Assembly (NCBI GenBank): GCA_019187485.1
Contig: JABAQR010000024.1
Span: 1-64,000, forward strand
Source of the DNA: Lysobacterales bacterium
GTDB lineage: Bacteria > Pseudomonadota > Gammaproteobacteria > Xanthomonadales > SZUA-5
Direction: 5' to 3'
DNA length: 64,000 nucleotides
The position numbers and the translations under genes are program-made. Of this stretch, positions 14,617-52,320 are shown one piece after another. A model generated the notes under the pieces. The model had not been told where the DNA came from. It saw only the letters and a list, made by a program, of their open reading frames with translations, and did not search any database. The first letter of the stretch is position 1, and each line of letters starts with the position of its first letter.

Positions 14617-17600
14617 TCAGAACTCGAAACGCCCGCCCAGGTTCAGGGTGCCACGGTCGAAGTCCTCATTGCCGAAAGTGTGGCGGTAGGACAGGAAGGC
14701 CTGGCGGCCGCTGCCGAGCAGGTAGACGAAGCCGAGGCCGGCGGTGCCATAGCTGTCGTCGGATTCTTCCTCTTGCAGGCGGAACAGGCCGGCGCCGCTG
14801 CCGGAGAGCAGGCGCGCGTCGGCCCGGGCCTCATCGCCGCTTTGGCTGTTCAGCGAGAAATCGAACTGCGGCATCAGCACGCCCTTGCTGAGGCTGACCG
14901 CGCGCGCCACCTGTACGCCGACAACGAACTGGGTGCTGTTGAAGCTCTGCTCGCCGTAGCCGACGTTGAAGGCGCCGGCATCGCCTTCGTCGAAGGCGTC
15001 GATGTCGCTCTTGGTAAAGCGCAGGCCCGCGTTCGGGGTGACGCTCCAGGCGCCGTAGTTCAGGTGGTAGCCGATCGACGAGGCGATCGTGAACTGGGTG
15101 GCGTCGGTGTCGCCGCTGGCGGTGGCATCGAAGACGCTGCCGCCGAGGGCGAAGTGGATGTGTCGCGACAGGTCGAGGCTGCTGCTGCCGTAGCTCAGGC
15201 GCGAATCGACGTAAAGCCGATCGTTGAGGTAGTACGAGCCGTAGCCGGTGACCATCACGCTGTCGGCATCGACGTTGCTGTCCTCGTTGACGTCGGAACT
15301 GAAGCTGGCGAAGCCGAGCGCGCCGCCGACCACCGCGCGCGAACTGAGGCGGTAGTCGACGCCGGCGGTGATGCCGCGCGAATCGTAGTCCACGCCGACA
15401 CGACCGGCGCCGAGGTCGCGGTCCTGCTGACCGGTGGTGATGTTGCCGTTGACGAAGAATCCCCAGGGGCTGACCAGGCCGTTGTCCTCGCCGAAACCAA
15501 GCGCCGCCTGCAGTGCGTCGCCGACCAGTGCCAGCGGAATCGTCGAATCGCCAGTGGTGACGGTCAGGCCGGACAGGCTGAAGCCGCCGCCGCCGCGGCG
15601 CAACTCGTTGAGACGCGCGTCGACGTTGAAGAACTGGGTGGCTGCGATTTCGCGCAGCACCAGGGTCTGCGCCAGCACTTCGTCCGGCGCGATCTCGCGC
15701 AGCGCTTCGGTCACCTCGCCGGTGCGGCCCTCGTCGGCTGCGCGCACGATCTCGCGACAGGCGTCCGCGAGCGCACTCGCCGGATCGACGCACTCGGCGG
15801 CAAGCACCGGCACGGCGGCCGCGGAAGCCGGATCGACGGCGGCCGGGTCGAGCAGGTCGGCGAGGTCGTCGGCGGTGCGGTTGTTGACCGTCGTCTGCTG
15901 GGTGGATCGGTTGTTGGCCGGATTGCGGTCGCTGCTGGAGCTGCTGACCACGCCCTCGTTGCTGAGCGTCTGGCCGCTGGTCGGCGCGCGCACGGTGATC
16001 GTCACCGCGGCGCTGGCGCCGGCGGCGAGCGCGCCACCCAGTGCGCAACCGACGGCCTGGCCCGTGCGGGTGCAGGTGTAGCCGTTGCCGCTGGCGGAAA
16101 CGAAGGTGAGCGCGGCCGGCAGGGTGTCGCTCACCAGCACGCCGGTGGCGGCCTCCGGGCCGAGGTTGCTGACATTGAGCGTGTAGCTGAACTGCGCCGC
16201 GGCGCGCACCGGATCGGCGCTGTCGGTCTTGACGATCGCGAGGTCGGCGCCGCCGGACTGGTAGGCGACGACCACGCGGGTCGCATTGTTCGCGGTCTGG
16301 GGGTCACCGGTGGTCGACGAGACGGTCAGGTTGGCGTCGGCGACTGCGGTCGCACCCGGCCGGATCGAGGCCTGCGCGCGCAGTTCGGCGTTGCCGTTGA
16401 CCGGCAGGCCGGCGCGGTTGCAGGCGAACTGCTGGCCACTGACGCTGCAGGTCCAGCCGCTGCCGGACACGTCGCTGAGGGCGAAGGCGGGCGACAACGT
16501 GCCGTTGACGGTGGTCGCGGCGGCGGGATCCGGGCCGCTGTTGCCGACACCGATCTGCAGCTCGACCGCCTGCCCGGTCAGCACGCTCGGCGGCACCGCG
16601 CTCGCCGAGATCGAGAGGTCGGCCTGCGGCACCGGTGGCGGCGGCGGTTCGGTAGTGATCGTGGTTGCTTCGGTATCGGCGTTGTTGGTGGCATTGACGT
16701 CGACATCCGCCGAGTCGACCGTCGCGCGGTTGCTGATCGAACCCGCCTGCGCCGGCGCACGCACCTGCAGCAGCACGCTCGCGCTCGCGCCCGGCGCGAG
16801 TGCACTGGCGAGTGTGCAGGTGACCGTGGTGCTGCCTGCGCAGGTGAAGCCGGCGCCGCTGGCGTTGATCAGGGTCAGGCCGGCCGGCAGCGTGTCGGTG
16901 ACGACCACACCATTGGCGGCGCTGTCGCCGATGTTGCGGACCTCGAGCGTGTAGGTGAAATCGCTGCCGACCTGCACCGGGTCGATGCTGTCGGACTTGA
17001 CGATCTCGAGGTCGACATTCGCCGGCGGCCGCGACACCACATTGACGGTCGCGGAAGAGACGATCGGCGTGCTCGTCGATTGCGAAGTCAGGCGCGCGAT
17101 GTTGTCGATGCTGCGTGGCGTCGACGGCGCGCGCACCTGGATGTCGAAGCTCGCCGAGGCGCCGGGCACCAGCGCGCTGCGGCGACAATCGACTGCGTTG
17201 CCGATGACGCTGCAGTTCCAGCCGGCGCCGGCCGCGGAGAGCACGCCGACCCCCGCGGGCACGTCGTCGCTGACGATCAGGCCGGATTCGGTGCTGCTGC
17301 CGTCGTTGCGGACGCTGATGGTGTAGCGGAAATCGCTGTCGGTCACCACCTGGCTGGCGCTCGCGGACTTCTGCAGGACCAGCCGGGAGGGCGCAGCGCC
17401 AGCATTCACCTGCAACGGCCAGCTGCGCACGATCGGATAGCCTTCGGGCGCGTTGGCCCCCGGTGCGCTGGCGTCGCCGTGCAACTCCTGGCAGGTCAGC
17501 AGCGCGGTCACCTGGGTGGCTCGCACCTGGGCGAGCAGGTTCAGGTCCTGCGGCGTGGTGCTGGCGCCGATGAAATTCAGCGTGATGCCCTGGAAGCCCG

Positions 17601-18258
17601 AGAAGGTTCCGGGCACCGACTCGTTGCTGAGCGAGCACTGGCCGAACCTGGTGGTTGCGGGCGCGCCGGTACCGGCGCCGCCGGCCGGTGTGGCGCGGAT
17701 CTGGGCGCTGGCGTTGCTGCCGATCAGGCCGCCGGAGGGCTGGAACACGATCGTGGTGCCGGGCGTCGGCACGAAACTCAGGGCGGGCGGGACCGGCACC
17801 GTGCCCGCCGGGCAGTTCAGTGGCCAGGAACGGATCGGACCGGTGGACCCGGCCGGCGACTCGTTGCACGACAGCGTGGCCGTGCGCGGGCTCGCGCCGG
17901 CCACGCAACTCAGGCTGATCGGGTTGGGCGCCGAAGTCGGCGTGAAGGACTGGTTCAGCGGATTCGCATTGAAGAAGCCCGCTTCGGCGCCGAGGATGGT
18001 GCATCCCAGCCCGACCGTGGCGATCGAACCGGAGCCCATGCCGCCCATCGGGGTGACCAGGATCTGGCCGCTGCCGGTGCTGCCGACATTGGTGACGCCG
18101 GTCAGGTTGACGGGCATGCCCGGCATCGGCGCGTAGCTCAGCGTCGGCGGAAAGACATTGCCCTCCTGCGCGAGCGCGGCGGTGGCGACGGCGGCGAGCG
18201 TGGCGGCGCGGGCCAGTTGAACCAGGGCTCGGCGGGCGAAGCGCGCGGACAGGGGCAT
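14617..18258 (-). CDS. Autotransporter with Cys modules and DUF11 repeats
   Basis: A 1,213-residue type V secreted protein. Residues 1-30 are a signal peptide (ending AALAQ). Residues about 31-290 contain two copies of a Cys-bearing module beginning PPTLSYAP / PPALSFVP with an atPaGGaGtGa core and ending WPLNCPAG or WPLQV. Residues about 293-780 hold four DUF11-type repeats, each with a Y/F-xYTLxVxN strand and a vtDtLPAG motif. A linker rich in Asp/Ala follows, and from about 926 to the end a 12-strand-type autotransporter barrel ends in the outer-membrane signature GGRFEF. ATG 18258 is preceded by AGGAG and the signal peptide; 29 upstream codons lack support. Role unknown, probably adhesion or surface display. 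Confidence 0.88.
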   Translation of the reverse strand: MPLSARFARRALVQLARAATLAAVATAALAQEGNVFPPTLSYAPMPGMPVNLTGVTNVGSTGSGQILVTPMGGMGSGSIATVGLGCTILGAEAGFFNANPLNQSFTPTSAPNPISLSCVAGASPRTATLSCNESPAGSTGPIRSWPLNCPAGTVPVPPALSFVPTPGTTIVFQPSGGLIGSNASAQIRATPAGGAGTGAPATTRFGQCSLSNESVPGTFSGFQGITLNFIGASTTPQDLNLLAQVRATQVTALLTCQELHGDASAPGANAPEGYPIVRSWPLQVNAGAAPSRLVLQKSASASQVVTDSDFRYTISVRNDGSSTESGLIVSDDVPAGVGVLSAAGAGWNCSVIGNAVDCRRSALVPGASASFDIQVRAPSTPRSIDNIARLTSQSTSTPIVSSATVNVVSRPPANVDLEIVKSDSIDPVQVGSDFTYTLEVRNIGDSAANGVVVTDTLPAGLTLINASGAGFTCAGSTTVTCTLASALAPGASASVLLQVRAPAQAGSISNRATVDSADVDVNATNNADTEATTITTEPPPPPVPQADLSISASAVPPSVLTGQAVELQIGVGNSGPDPAAATTVNGTLSPAFALSDVSGSGWTCSVSGQQFACNRAGLPVNGNAELRAQASIRPGATAVADANLTVSSTTGDPQTANNATRVVVAYQSGGADLAIVKTDSADPVRAAAQFSYTLNVSNLGPEAATGVLVSDTLPAALTFVSASGNGYTCTRTGQAVGCALGGALAAGASAAVTITVRAPTSGQTLSNEGVVSSSSSDRNPANNRSTQQTTVNNRTADDLADLLDPAAVDPASAAAVPVLAAECVDPASALADACREIVRAADEGRTGEVTEALREIAPDEVLAQTLVLREIAATQFFNVDARLNELRRGGGGFSLSGLTVTTGDSTIPLALVGDALQAALGFGEDNGLVSPWGFFVNGNITTGQQDRDLGAGRVGVDYDSRGITAGVDYRLSSRAVVGGALGFASFSSDVNEDSNVDADSVMVTGYGSYYLNDRLYVDSRLSYGSSSLDLSRHIHFALGGSVFDATASGDTDATQFTIASSIGYHLNYGAWSVTPNAGLRFTKSDIDAFDEGDAGAFNVGYGEQSFNSTQFVVGVQVARAVSLSKGVLMPQFDFSLNSQSGDEARADARLLSGSGAGLFRLQEEESDDSYGTAGLGFVYLLGSGRQAFLSYRHTFGNEDFDRGTLNLGGRFEF

Positions 18259-46027: not shown

Positions 46028-46840
46028 ATGGTCGAGGCGATCCACCACCGCCAGCTCGCCCGCGAATGCCTGCTCGAAGCCGACGTCGCCGCCAAGCTGG
46101 CGCGCACGGCGGTGGTATCCGCAGCCATCGCTTCCGGCGCCTGCCCGATCTCGCCCGAAGGCGGCCCCGCGATCGAACGCATCGAGCAGCCCGGCCGGCC
46201 GTCGCAGCCTGCGCTCGTGCCCCCGGCTCGGCTCGCGCAACGCAAGCTCCACCACCCCGAAGGCCGCGCCGCGCTGGTGCACGCGGTCGCCCACATCGAG
46301 TTCAATGCGATCAACCTCGCGTGGGATGCGGTCTACCGCTTTCCGGGCATGCCCGCAGCGTACTACCGCGACTGGGCCAGCGTCGCCGCGGACGAAGCGC
46401 GCCATTTCGCCCTGCTGCAGGCGCGCCTTGCCGAGCTCGGCCACACCTACGGAGATTTTCCGGCCCACGACGGCCTCTGGCAGATGGCCCTGGACACCGA
46501 CCACGATCCCTTGTTGCGCATGGCTCTCGTCCCACGCGTGCTCGAGGCACGCGGCCTGGATGTGACCCCGGGCATGATCGAACGGCTGCAGCGCGCCGGC
46601 GACGCCGCCACGGTGGCCTCGCTTGAAGTGATCCTGCGCGAAGAGGTGCGTCACGTCGCGATCGGCACACGCTGGTTCCGCCATCTCTGTGGTCAACGCG
46701 GCGAGGATCCGGTCGAGCTGTTCCCGCGCCTGCTGCGCGAGCACGCGGTGGTGCTGCGGCTGCCCTTCAACGAAGCTGCGCGAATGGCCGCGGGCTTCGT
46801 CGCGGAAGAGTTGTCCGCTTTGGCTGCGATCGCCCGTTGA
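46028..46840 (+). CDS. DUF455 ferritin-like protein
   Basis: A 270-residue protein of the DUF455 family with a predicted ferritin-like four-helix fold. Potential di-metal ligands are seen in HIEFNAINLAWD, ADEARHFALL and REEVRHVAIG, the EX(2)H pattern of di-iron proteins. ATG 46028 is preceded by an AGGGAGG Shine-Dalgarno and is preferred over 53 upstream codons that read through the repeat region. Biological role is unknown. Confidence 0.88.
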   Translation: MVEAIHHRQLARECLLEADVAAKLARTAVVSAAIASGACPISPEGGPAIERIEQPGRPSQPALVPPARLAQRKLHHPEGRAALVHAVAHIEFNAINLAWDAVYRFPGMPAAYYRDWASVAADEARHFALLQARLAELGHTYGDFPAHDGLWQMALDTDHDPLLRMALVPRVLEARGLDVTPGMIERLQRAGDAATVASLEVILREEVRHVAIGTRWFRHLCGQRGEDPVELFPRLLREHAVVLRLPFNEAARMAAGFVAEELSALAAIAR

Positions 46841-46974
46841 GAGGATTCCGAGGCCGCTCGCGTCTTTAACTCCCGTACAGGGCTGTGTTAGCCTTGTGCG
46901 GTGGGGTGCTGCGGCCGAGGGCGGCCGGCATCGCTATCGGGCGCGCAACTTCAACTCTTCTGAAGGACACCTCC

Positions 46975-47880
46975 ATGAATCACAAAGCTCTCCTGGGTAC
47001 GGCCATCGCCGCCGCGCTCATGTTCGGTGCGCAGGCCGCCTCGGCGTGCGTGATCAGCGCCTGGGCCCCGGTGCAGGCCGGCGGCTCCCAGGGCGTCTCG
47101 GCGGCCGATGCTGGCGATCCGACCGTTGGCGGCGGTCCGACTGCGGGTGGCTTCAAGCGCTACTCGGGCAGTTGCAGCCTGCGCGTGAATTCCGCCAATG
47201 GCGCCACCGGTCGCTATGTGCTGGACAGCACTCCCGGTGCCGAAACCAGCTACCGCGTGCGCTTCATGTACTTCACCGGCAACCTGAGCGGCACCGCCGA
47301 CATCTTCCAGGCGCGCAACTCGGGCGGCACCAACATCATCCGCGTGACCCATGACGGCACCAACATGTCCGTCAGCACCACCAGTGGGTCCACCGCGACC
47401 TTCGCGGTGAACGACAACGCCTGGTACACGGTCGAGCTGGCCTGGGCGTCCGCGGCGGGCACCGGTTCGCTGACCGGCACCGTCCGTGGTGCGGGCAGCA
47501 CGACCGCCGCCGGCACCATCAACATCACCGGCCTCAACAACGGCAGCGACCGCATCGATGAAGCTCGCCTCGGTCTCGCCGCCGGCACGCCCAACTTCAA
47601 CTCCACGGCGATCTACTTCGATGAGTTCGATTCGCGCCGGACGCAGAATCCCGGTCGTCTCTGCCGCGGCGACGCCGGCGGTGGTGCGGGCGGTGCGCCG
47701 GACGGGCTTCTGAACGTCTTCGACATCGGCGCCATGGTGGGTGAGATCCAGGCGCCGACGAACCCCGCGAATCTGGTCAAGGGTCAGCCGGACTTCAATG
47801 AGGACGGCATCCTGAACGTGTTCGACATCGGCACGATGGTGCCCGTCATCGTCGCAAACACCCCTTGCTCGGCCACCTAA
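46975..47880 (+). CDS. Exported protein with dockerin-like C-terminus
   Basis: A 301-residue secreted protein. Residues 1-23 form a signal peptide (ending AASA before CVISAW). The middle (about 40-225) has a beta-sandwich look of the LamG/concanavalin type, with YRVRFMYFTGN and YTVELAWA strands. The C-terminus carries two dockerin-like EF-hand repeats: PDGLLNVFDIGAMVGEI and PDFNEDGILNVFDIGTMV. The second has the DxNxDGxxNxxD calcium pattern; the first has an insertion before DG. A Cys pair flanks the module (RLC and TPC). GAAGGA precedes the ATG. It is the first of three exported-protein genes with small gaps; the next two look cohesin-like. Confidence 0.82.
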   Translation: MNHKALLGTAIAAALMFGAQAASACVISAWAPVQAGGSQGVSAADAGDPTVGGGPTAGGFKRYSGSCSLRVNSANGATGRYVLDSTPGAETSYRVRFMYFTGNLSGTADIFQARNSGGTNIIRVTHDGTNMSVSTTSGSTATFAVNDNAWYTVELAWASAAGTGSLTGTVRGAGSTTAAGTINITGLNNGSDRIDEARLGLAAGTPNFNSTAIYFDEFDSRRTQNPGRLCRGDAGGGAGGAPDGLLNVFDIGAMVGEIQAPTNPANLVKGQPDFNEDGILNVFDIGTMVPVIVANTPCSAT

Positions 47881-47898
47881 GATCCAGGAGCCACGGAA

Positions 47899-48345
47899 AT
47901 GAATCGCGCAATCCTGTTTGTCGCCGCCGCCTCGCTGATGGCGGTCGCTTCCACCGCGTCTGCGGGCAATGACCTCATCGTCGCATCGGCCAAGAGCGGT
48001 GCGACCGCTTTCTCGGCGGACGCGGTGCTCGATGGCGAGGCGGTGGGTCTGCAGTTCCGCATCAAGGTCGTCGGCGGATCCGACAAGACCCGTTTCATGC
48101 TCGACAACTGCCTGAAGAGCCTGCCGAAGACGCATCAGGGTACCTGCGGCGTCTCCTCGGACAAGTCGATAGTGACCGGCCTGGTCTACAGCCTGTCCAA
48201 CGCCAAGCTGCCTGCGGGTGTGTTCCCGCTGGGGACGGTGCACGTGACCTCGGGCGAAAAGGTGTCCTTCGAAGTTGTGGAGTTCCTGGTGGCAGGCGAT
48301 GCTGGCCGGCCGCTTGAAGCGGCGGTACAGAATGCCCTAAAGTAA
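47899..48345 (+). CDS. Small exported protein, possibly cohesin-like
   Basis: A 148-residue protein with a signal peptide (residues 1-22, ending STASA). I do not recognise it firmly. The mature part is rich in beta strands: VGLQFRIKVVGG, then GLVYSLSNAKLPAGVFPLGTVHV and KVSFEVVEFLVAGDAGRPLEA. This strand order, with a central hydrophobic xGxF strand and a final G-xx-L, resembles isolated cohesin domains seen next to dockerin proteins. Two Cys (LDNC and GTCG) could form a disulphide. It begins 18 bases after the dockerin-like gene with a GGAG site, so it is in the same operon. Confidence 0.7.
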   Translation: MNRAILFVAAASLMAVASTASAGNDLIVASAKSGATAFSADAVLDGEAVGLQFRIKVVGGSDKTRFMLDNCLKSLPKTHQGTCGVSSDKSIVTGLVYSLSNAKLPAGVFPLGTVHVTSGEKVSFEVVEFLVAGDAGRPLEAAVQNALK

Positions 48346-48383
48346 CGAAGTCAGTGGTTGCGCCCTTGCGTTAGGAGATAATA

Positions 48384-50105
48384 ATGAGAATGTTCAAGAG
48401 TTTGACGGCGGCGCTTGGCCTCCTGGCCCTCGCGGGTTCGGAGGCAGCGCTCGCCGGTGCGTGGACCATCGGTAACGGTTCCGGCAACGCCGGGACCCAA
48501 GTCACCGTTCCGGTGAACTTCGCCGGTGACGGCGTCACCATTTCCAGCCAGATCACGGTGTCGGTGGCGGCGCCGCTGTCGGTCGTCAGTGCAACTCCCC
48601 AGAATGGGCAAGCCTGCAGCGCGAGCGGCAACTCCGTGACCATCGTGCTGTTCTCGTTCAGCGCGCTGCCCGGCGCTGCCACGAACTACTGCAACATCAC
48701 GCTGGCGATCGCTACGGGTACTCCGGCGAGCCCGCCGACGCTGCCGGTCACCGGTAGCGCCCAGTTGTGCGCGATCTCCGGCGGTGGCGCGGCCCCGACC
48801 TGCACCGCGGCCAACGGTGCGATCACCGTCACCGGCGGTGGTGGCAACACCCCGCCGACCATCGCCTACAACCCGACGACTGGTACGACGATCAACTACA
48901 CCGGCGCCGGTACGGCCTCGTCGATCGTGGCCACGCCGAGCGGCGGTGCCGGCTCGGGCGCGGCGGCGACCACCACGGTCGGCGCGTGCACGATCTCCGG
49001 TGGTGGCGCTGCGTTCCCGACCACCAACATCGCGCAGCTGTCGTTCGTCGGCAATACCGTGACGCCGCAGAATATCGCGCTGCCGAACTGCGTCCCGCAG
49101 GCCGGCGGTGAGACCAACGCCACCTTGACCTGCCCCGAGTCTGCCGGTGGCGGCGCTGCGGTCAATCGCACCTGGCCACTGGTGTGCCCGCAGGCTGCGG
49201 TCGGGGCCACGCCGCCGACGCTGACGTACAACCCGGCCAGTGGATCGACCACCAACGTCAACGCCGGTAACAACCTGACCATCAACGTCGGCTGCCCGAA
49301 CGATGGCGCTGCTTGCGGCGGCACTGGATCGGGTTTGGGTGCGACTTCCCGCTTGAACACGTTGGTGGCGACCTACACCGGCCTTGCCAGCCCGGCACCG
49401 TCCATGCAGTGCAACTTCGTCACCGAAGGCGGCGCCGTGGTAGTGGCCCCGCTGGATTTCGTCGCGACCCAGGCTGACTCGGGCGACATCCGCTGCACTT
49501 GCCCGGTCAACTCGACGGGTCTTCCCACCGAGCCTTTCCAGGTCACGGTGCAGGAAAGCAGCCCGGCCAGCGGCGGCGTCACCGCCACGCGCACCTTCAA
49601 CATCACCTGCCAAGGCGCTCCGCCCCCGGCGTGCGGCACGATCAGCGCAAATCCGCCTTCTGGCACGCTGACGCTGACCAATGGTGGTGCGGCCACGCAG
49701 ATCATGCAGGCGGCTCTGGCCGGTGCCGGTGCGGGCGTCAGCCACACCGTCAACTGCTCGCTGAGCGGCGTGTCCTCTGGCACCGTGTTCACGATCACGA
49801 CCAGCCCGAGCCCGCTGACGCTGAACAACGTCACCACCACCGGGACGGTCAGCGCGAGCTGCACCAACTCCCTGCAGACCCAGGGCAGCGGTACGCTGAC
49901 CTGCACCTCGACCGCGAGCGGCGCCAGCGGCTGCGCATCGCTGAGCGCTCAGTACACGCTGCAGTGCCCGGGCGCTGGCGGTCCGCCGCCGGGCCCGCTG
50001 CCGTCGGTTCCGGTGCCGGCGCTGGGTGAGCAGGGTCGCATCCTGCTGGCCGCGCTGATGCTGCTGCTCGGCCTCGGCGTCGTCGGCTTCCGCATGCGCG
50101 GCTGA
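48384..50105 (+). CDS. Exported repeat protein with IPTL-CTERM-like tail
   Basis: A 573-residue protein. A signal peptide (1-22, ending ALA) precedes a cohesin-like domain (about 22-150: GNAGTQVTVPVNFAGDGV, then ITVSVAAPLSVVSATP). Two copies of a Cys-bearing module follow, starting PPTIAYNPTTGTT (about 153) and PPTLTYNPASGSTT (about 274), related to the autotransporter passenger; a third, more distant Cys-rich part ends near 530. The C-terminus has PVPALGEQGRILLAALM, a membrane helix and RMRG, which matches the IPTL-CTERM pattern of exosortase H substrates. A strong AGGAGATA site precedes the ATG. A terminator follows the stop. Confidence 0.82.
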   Translation: MRMFKSLTAALGLLALAGSEAALAGAWTIGNGSGNAGTQVTVPVNFAGDGVTISSQITVSVAAPLSVVSATPQNGQACSASGNSVTIVLFSFSALPGAATNYCNITLAIATGTPASPPTLPVTGSAQLCAISGGGAAPTCTAANGAITVTGGGGNTPPTIAYNPTTGTTINYTGAGTASSIVATPSGGAGSGAAATTTVGACTISGGGAAFPTTNIAQLSFVGNTVTPQNIALPNCVPQAGGETNATLTCPESAGGGAAVNRTWPLVCPQAAVGATPPTLTYNPASGSTTNVNAGNNLTINVGCPNDGAACGGTGSGLGATSRLNTLVATYTGLASPAPSMQCNFVTEGGAVVVAPLDFVATQADSGDIRCTCPVNSTGLPTEPFQVTVQESSPASGGVTATRTFNITCQGAPPPACGTISANPPSGTLTLTNGGAATQIMQAALAGAGAGVSHTVNCSLSGVSSGTVFTITTSPSPLTLNNVTTTGTVSASCTNSLQTQGSGTLTCTSTASGASGCASLSAQYTLQCPGAGGPPPGPLPSVPVPALGEQGRILLAALMLLLGLGVVGFRMRG

Positions 50106-50132
50106 TCGACCCAAGGTGCTGTAGCTTGAACC

Positions 50133-50158
50133 CGAAGGGGCCCGCGAGGGCCCCTTCG
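50133..50158 (+). terminator. Hairpin terminator after exported-protein cluster
   Basis: CGAAGGGGCCC (50133-50143) and GGGCCCCTTCG (50148-50158) form an 11-bp perfect stem with a GCGA tetraloop 28 bases after the stop of the IPTL-CTERM-like gene. Only a short GCGTTTG stretch follows, so the U-tract is weak. Confidence 0.8.
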
Positions 50159-50188
50159 GCGTTTGAGTCCCCGTTCATTTTCAAGTTT

Positions 50189-50487: not shown

Positions 50488-52320
<1,833 letters not shown>

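Follow-up and report, generated by a model that had tools for sequence, protein, structure and literature searches.

The window, a 64,000-nucleotide stretch of DNA from a member of the Lysobacterales, contains three adjoining genes (P1, P2 and P3) that probably encode a dedicated one-client surface display system. P1 (46975-47880, + strand) specifies a 301-aa exported protein with a ConA-like domain followed by a C-terminal dockerin, P2 (47899-48345, +) a 148-aa exported free-standing cohesin-like protein, and P3 (48384-50105, +) a 573-aa protein composed of a cohesin, an Ig-like stalk and an IPTL-type tail. The preliminary description of this DNA had proposed a three-gene exported cluster, and this holds: the three same-strand ORFs each begin with a Sec-type signal peptide, as read from the sequence, and their order is kept in relatives. 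The short intergenic gaps (18 bp between P1 and P2, 38 bp between P2 and P3), combined with a perfect 12-bp hairpin 3' of P3 read directly from the sequence (50132-50159, +), suggest a single operon, of which the hairpin is the probable end; a search for a sigma-70-like promoter at the cluster found none. The neighbours are a ferritin-like gene upstream (46028-46840), itself downstream of purF, and glmS downstream (50488-52320); a gene of ferritin-like fold separates purF from the cluster in several genomes of the same family as well as in the window. An antisense ORF (46951-48243) overlying P1 and P2 has a coding-like composition, the genome being high in GC. P1, P2 and P3 are nevertheless the real genes, because substitutions relative to relatives are biased towards the third position in the + frames (mismatches at codon positions 1/2/3: 93/72/137 for P1, 40/29/75 for P2 and 192/180/261 for P3) and the proteins are conserved, many genomes having orthologues arranged in the same sequence. 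The literature searched, which covered few subscription papers, yielded no description of this operon.

The C-terminus of P1 is a dockerin consisting of two F-hand repeats with loops of the D-x-N-x-D-G type (47620-47877, +), as established by a profile comparison with PDB dockerins, Pfam matches in orthologues and the symmetry of the repeats. A profile derived from 25 orthologues retrieves solved dockerins from the PDB (best E 2.6e-7), and Pfam Dockerin_1 matches 18 of 25 P1 orthologues, in support of the two dockerin-like repeats originally noted at the end of the first protein. The second calcium loop has a canonical sequence (DFNEDGILNVFD; 47791-47826, +), and the first one in the window copy (GDAGGGAGGAPDGLLNVFD) is degenerate, with an insertion. 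Taken alone, the window P1 reaches 13.5 bits against NCBIfam dockerin_GC (cut-off 29, i.e. sub-threshold), and single-sequence searches of Pfam, NCBIfam and PDB with the window proteins returned nothing over the cut-offs. In fact, such HMMs miss both the dockerin and the cohesins, so the first reading of the sequence had picked up what they overlook. Dockerin specificity is seated in the residues on either side of the last calcium ligand. At these residues the repeats are 82% identical within a protein and 20% identical between proteins, and none of 10000 permutations in a repeat-symmetry test reached the observed within-protein identity. Sequence symmetry of the repeats is described as crucial to dual-binding dockerins (PMC8063739), which the two near-identical, matched repeats of P1 would by analogy resemble.

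The N-terminal part of P3 (48459-48845, +) is a cohesin by both sequence profile and jelly-roll fold. It matches profile A2 at 8e-24, and all of the nine best PDB matches of the P3 N-terminus profile (19 sequences) are solved cohesins, all significant, headed at 6.8e-10 by the scaffoldin cohesin of Clostridium cellulolyticum (1g1k/2vn5), a member of the clostridial type I pairs. Pfam Cohesin matches 6 of 19 P3 orthologues (best 7.8e-15), and the window sequence by itself is sub-threshold at 13.5-15.4 bits (15.4 for the P3 copy; cut-off 24.1). The P3-type cohesin of one orthologue (L086) gave a confident model, whose best Foldseek matches are cohesins throughout (6kgf, 3.1e-11). P2, a family for which 33 members were collected, has a cohesin fold according to Foldseek and profile-profile comparison. 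Its AF2 model retrieves the type II cohesin 5k39_A (2.8e-5), 2bm3, 2jh2 and 5nrm_A, and hhalign matches its profile to that of the P3 cohesin (96.5%). On the other hand, Pfam Cohesin gave no match in any of 16 P2 members, all falling short of the curated cut-off, and the best PDB match of the P2 profile, the NagJ cohesin, is marginal (0.01). In two genomes (G011 and G013) the protein at the P2 position visibly resembles the N-terminal domain of the adjoining P3. The preliminary description had called both cohesins by eye, allowing that the folds might prove unrelated to cohesin; HMM and structure prediction bore out the calls for the second as well as the third protein.

The putative client, P1, starts with a signal peptide (46975-47046, +; MNHKALLGTAIAAALMFGAQAASA) read from the sequence and conserved in orthologues. 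The domain that follows (47047-47619, +) was modelled by AF2 (pLDDT mostly >90) as a ConA-like jelly-roll of the LamG/pentraxin/polysaccharide-lyase type. The nearest fold is that of the glucuronan lyase 2zzj (VIA Z 16.3), followed by PL7/PL14 alginate lyases and GH131 (Z 13-15); lectins, neurexin LG domains and pentraxins are among the further structural matches. The modelled likeness to polysaccharide lyases would reflect a shared jelly-roll fold, which by itself shows no function; judged by this fold, P1 appears to be a protein of the glycan-binding or glycan-cleaving type. A reading of P1 as a lipoprotein was rejected, given that the invariant Cys lies at a varying distance from the likely signal cleavage site; the presence of a second invariant Cys, a possible pairing partner of the first, disfavours it as well.

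Behind its cohesin, P3 continues into an Ig-like stalk (48846-50006, +), whose repeat unit is amplified in a relative (G004). There, locus L063 (G004:C49, 3-3088) holds at least 8.6 tandem copies (~90% match) of a 357-bp unit that corresponds to the P3-type stalk, within a P3-type protein that has an IPTL-like tail and has lost its N-terminus at the contig start. Elsewhere in the window (14617-18258, -), a 1213-aa exported protein contains repeats up to 42% identical to the P3 stalk unit, so that more than one surface-type protein of this genome makes use of the Ig-like unit.

P3 ends in a tripartite tail of the IPTL type (50007-50102, +; VPVPALGEQGRILLAALMLLLGLGVVGFRMRG), recognised by comparison with the tails of orthologues. 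The IPTL-CTERM-like anchor that the preliminary description had ascribed to the third protein is upheld in part: the P3 orthologues carry IPTL-type tails at their C-terminal ends (those of L072, L080 and L086 score over the cut-off of TIGR04174) and XrtH accompanies them, but the window tail itself has no match to TIGR04174 at E<=0.1. XrtH (TIGR04177), the cognate exosortase of IPTL-CTERM proteins (TIGR04174), is encoded in the window genome (E 2.2e-51, over the cut-off) and in 13 out of 13 further genomes, 12 of them with a dockerin-bearing P1 plus G085; in the search that took in the window's own genome, 48 of 61 genomes encode it. It is present in every near-complete module-bearing genome checked, and all 11 XrtH-less genomes with a completeness of 90% or more are without the module. 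Among the f2 genomes, both with the module encode XrtH, and seven others are without XrtH. A separate arrangement was seen in G085 (L122, G085:C5, 1632-2531), where a P1-type N-domain is directly joined to an IPTL-like hydrophobic/basic tail, with neither a dockerin nor a cohesin neighbour; to judge by this sequence, it is as if the docking step were bypassed.

Taken together, these features are consistent with the following mechanism. P3 would be exported and probably processed at its IPTL-type tail by XrtH, to stand on the cell surface with its cohesin at the far (N-terminal) end of the Ig-like stalk. P1 would be exported as a soluble protein, whose calcium-loaded dockerin docks onto the P3 cohesin, so that the jelly-roll domain would be displayed at the tip of the stalk; the near-identical repeats may permit docking in two orientations. 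P2, as a free secreted cohesin, may bind the same dockerin and would most likely modulate loading, be it as an adaptor, a chaperone or a competitor. The degenerate first calcium loop of P1 and the failure of the window tail to match the IPTL-CTERM model count against the display reading. A more specific version of it may be put forward tentatively: a single-client, two-part, XrtH-anchored tip assembly conserved in one order, in which the free secreted cohesin caps or competes and so regulates loading, and in which dockerin/cohesin specificity drifts between species as both dockerin faces stay matched.

The co-inheritance of the two modules was assessed across the order. P1 matches (E<=1e-8) were found in 74 of 298 Lysobacterales genomes, and 50 of these matches, in nine families, span both N-domain and dockerin; no full-length P1 was found outside the order among 370 genomes sampled across the class. 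By locus type, P2 and P3 are both present at 30 loci, P3 only at 13 and P2 only at 3; in the part of the order from which P2 is absent, P3 directly follows P1, and some relatives have the P1 N-domain without a dockerin. A cohesin gene lies downstream at 39 out of 43 dockerin-bearing P1 loci versus none out of 12 dockerin-less ones, counting only loci where the sequence extends 1.5 kb or more downstream (Fisher 4e-9, a descriptive value, as the loci are phylogenetically related and the counts overstate their independence). The remaining 4 dockerin-bearing loci with enough downstream sequence have no adjoining cohesin. That dockerin and cohesin are so strongly linked in these genomes is hard to reconcile with an explanation by which the F-hand repeats merely stabilise P1 via calcium, the cohesin-like domains being generic beta-sandwiches located nearby for other reasons. 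Such an explanation would accommodate the degenerate first loop of the window protein and the single-sequence scores under the cut-offs, but it leaves unaccounted for the symmetry of the dockerin specificity region and the fact that solved cohesins and dockerins are the leading matches of the family profiles; we regard it as very unlikely.

A different partner for the dockerin has also to be considered, namely P2, with which P1 would form a soluble secreted complex, leaving P3 as an independent surface protein with a ligand of its own. P1 adjoins P2, and structure prediction also speaks for this pairing. In the P1-P2 pseudo-complex, the window genes, which are in frame, were read through the TAA stop of P1 and folded as one chain by AF2 (mixed alignment rows with the cohesin only or P2 only, which fell on the wrong domain, were left out of the folding). 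The resulting model has a mean pLDDT of 84.8 and a pTM of 0.81, above the ceiling of ~0.70 that we estimate from the definition of pTM for an arbitrary placement of P2 relative to P1, and hence a defined mutual arrangement of P1 and P2 is predicted, which counts in favour of the display reading as well. The corresponding model of the L086 dockerin with its P3 cohesin, computed from a shallow alignment, gave a dockerin pLDDT of about 40-66 and a pTM of 0.59, a prediction too poor in its dockerin part to speak for or against docking. However, the 13 loci without a detected P2 retain the P1 dockerin, followed by P3. Moreover, once the P1 N-domain distance is allowed for, dockerin distances still correlate with those of the P3 cohesin (n=43, partial r 0.50). 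In one common set of 30 loci, the partial r of the dockerin distance is 0.60 with the P3 cohesin and 0.43 with P2, so that P3 is followed no less closely than P2; these correlations lend weak support, shared ancestry being removed from them only in part. Exclusive pairing with P2 is therefore considered unlikely. Least probable of all, in our judgement, is a cellulosome-like scaffold, in which a surface protein with multiple cohesins would bring together a number of secreted enzymes. The cluster does possess a cohesin, a dockerin and a surface tail, and the fold of the P1 N-domain is common to polysaccharide lyases, but a dockerin profile search largely refutes such a scaffold: of 16 other genomes checked, 15 encode no dockerin besides P1, almost every P3 protein found has a single cohesin, and no dockerin clients borne on enzymes were found. 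With usually one dockerin per genome, this is a one-client docking system and not a cellulosome in the usual sense, as the non-cellulosomal character originally assumed for the assembly implied. A second P3-like ORF in G005 (L065, G005:C117, 1-1814, -), cut by the contig end, does offer that reading some support, with at least 2 cohesins spaced by Ig-like units; by its sequence, it is a possible small scaffoldin. The sole further dockerin in the window genome, of a different type (VADIFYLINF/VADIFFIINY), forms the C-terminus of a secreted protein of 1637 aa that has a cohesin-like stretch in its interior (L100, G000:C37, 6161-11074, -).

The display system preferred here shares parts with several known ones. 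Unlike clostridial cellulosomes, from whose type I pairs the closest solved relative of the P3 cohesin comes, it usually has one dockerin per genome and no enzyme array, and in place of clostridial cell-wall anchoring it has an IPTL/XrtH-type tail in a Gram-negative host. Cohesins and dockerins outside cellulosomes are known in general, and were reportedly the subject of Peer et al. in 2009, as cited in PMC6030884. The cohesins of Archaeoglobus fulgidus (2xdh) and Clostridium perfringens NagJ (2jh2) are likewise modules outside cellulosomes, in contrast to which the present ones belong to a conserved dedicated operon that also specifies a stalk, a sorting tail and one more cohesin, which is free. 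The autonomous cohesins of Ruminococcus flavefaciens (4n2o; CohG of ScaG, 4wkz), which are among the Foldseek matches of the P3-type cohesin, are like P2 in their free-standing architecture, but unlike P2 they belong to a Firmicute cellulosome context. The C-terminal IPTL-type tail is common to P3 and the IPTL-CTERM/XrtH surface proteins, one of which forms the S-layer of the diderm Methylomirabilis lanthanidiphila and so is located at the surface (PMC8671808); P3 differs from the others in that the cohesin it displays would bring in another secreted protein. The earlier remark that such systems are little described in gammaproteobacteria is fair, albeit not absolute, as dockerin-like and cohesin-like ORFs have been noted in Saccharophagus degradans (PMC2386152).

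The role of cohesins and dockerins outside cellulosomes is a long-standing question, and the cluster offers a minimal natural case of it: a single operon in a Gram-negative host, with one or two cohesins, as a rule no more than one dockerin in the genome, and a likely sorting enzyme that is known. Single gene deletions could test the non-cellulosomal role directly, and the dockerin repeats, which change fast but stay matched within a protein, provide many species-specific pairs in which orthogonal docking may be studied and possibly used. If true, the display reading would give IPTL/XrtH-anchored surface proteins a concrete task, the recruitment of a second secreted protein. Overall, a connector of the cellulosome style is probably used here to display one protein and not an enzyme set.
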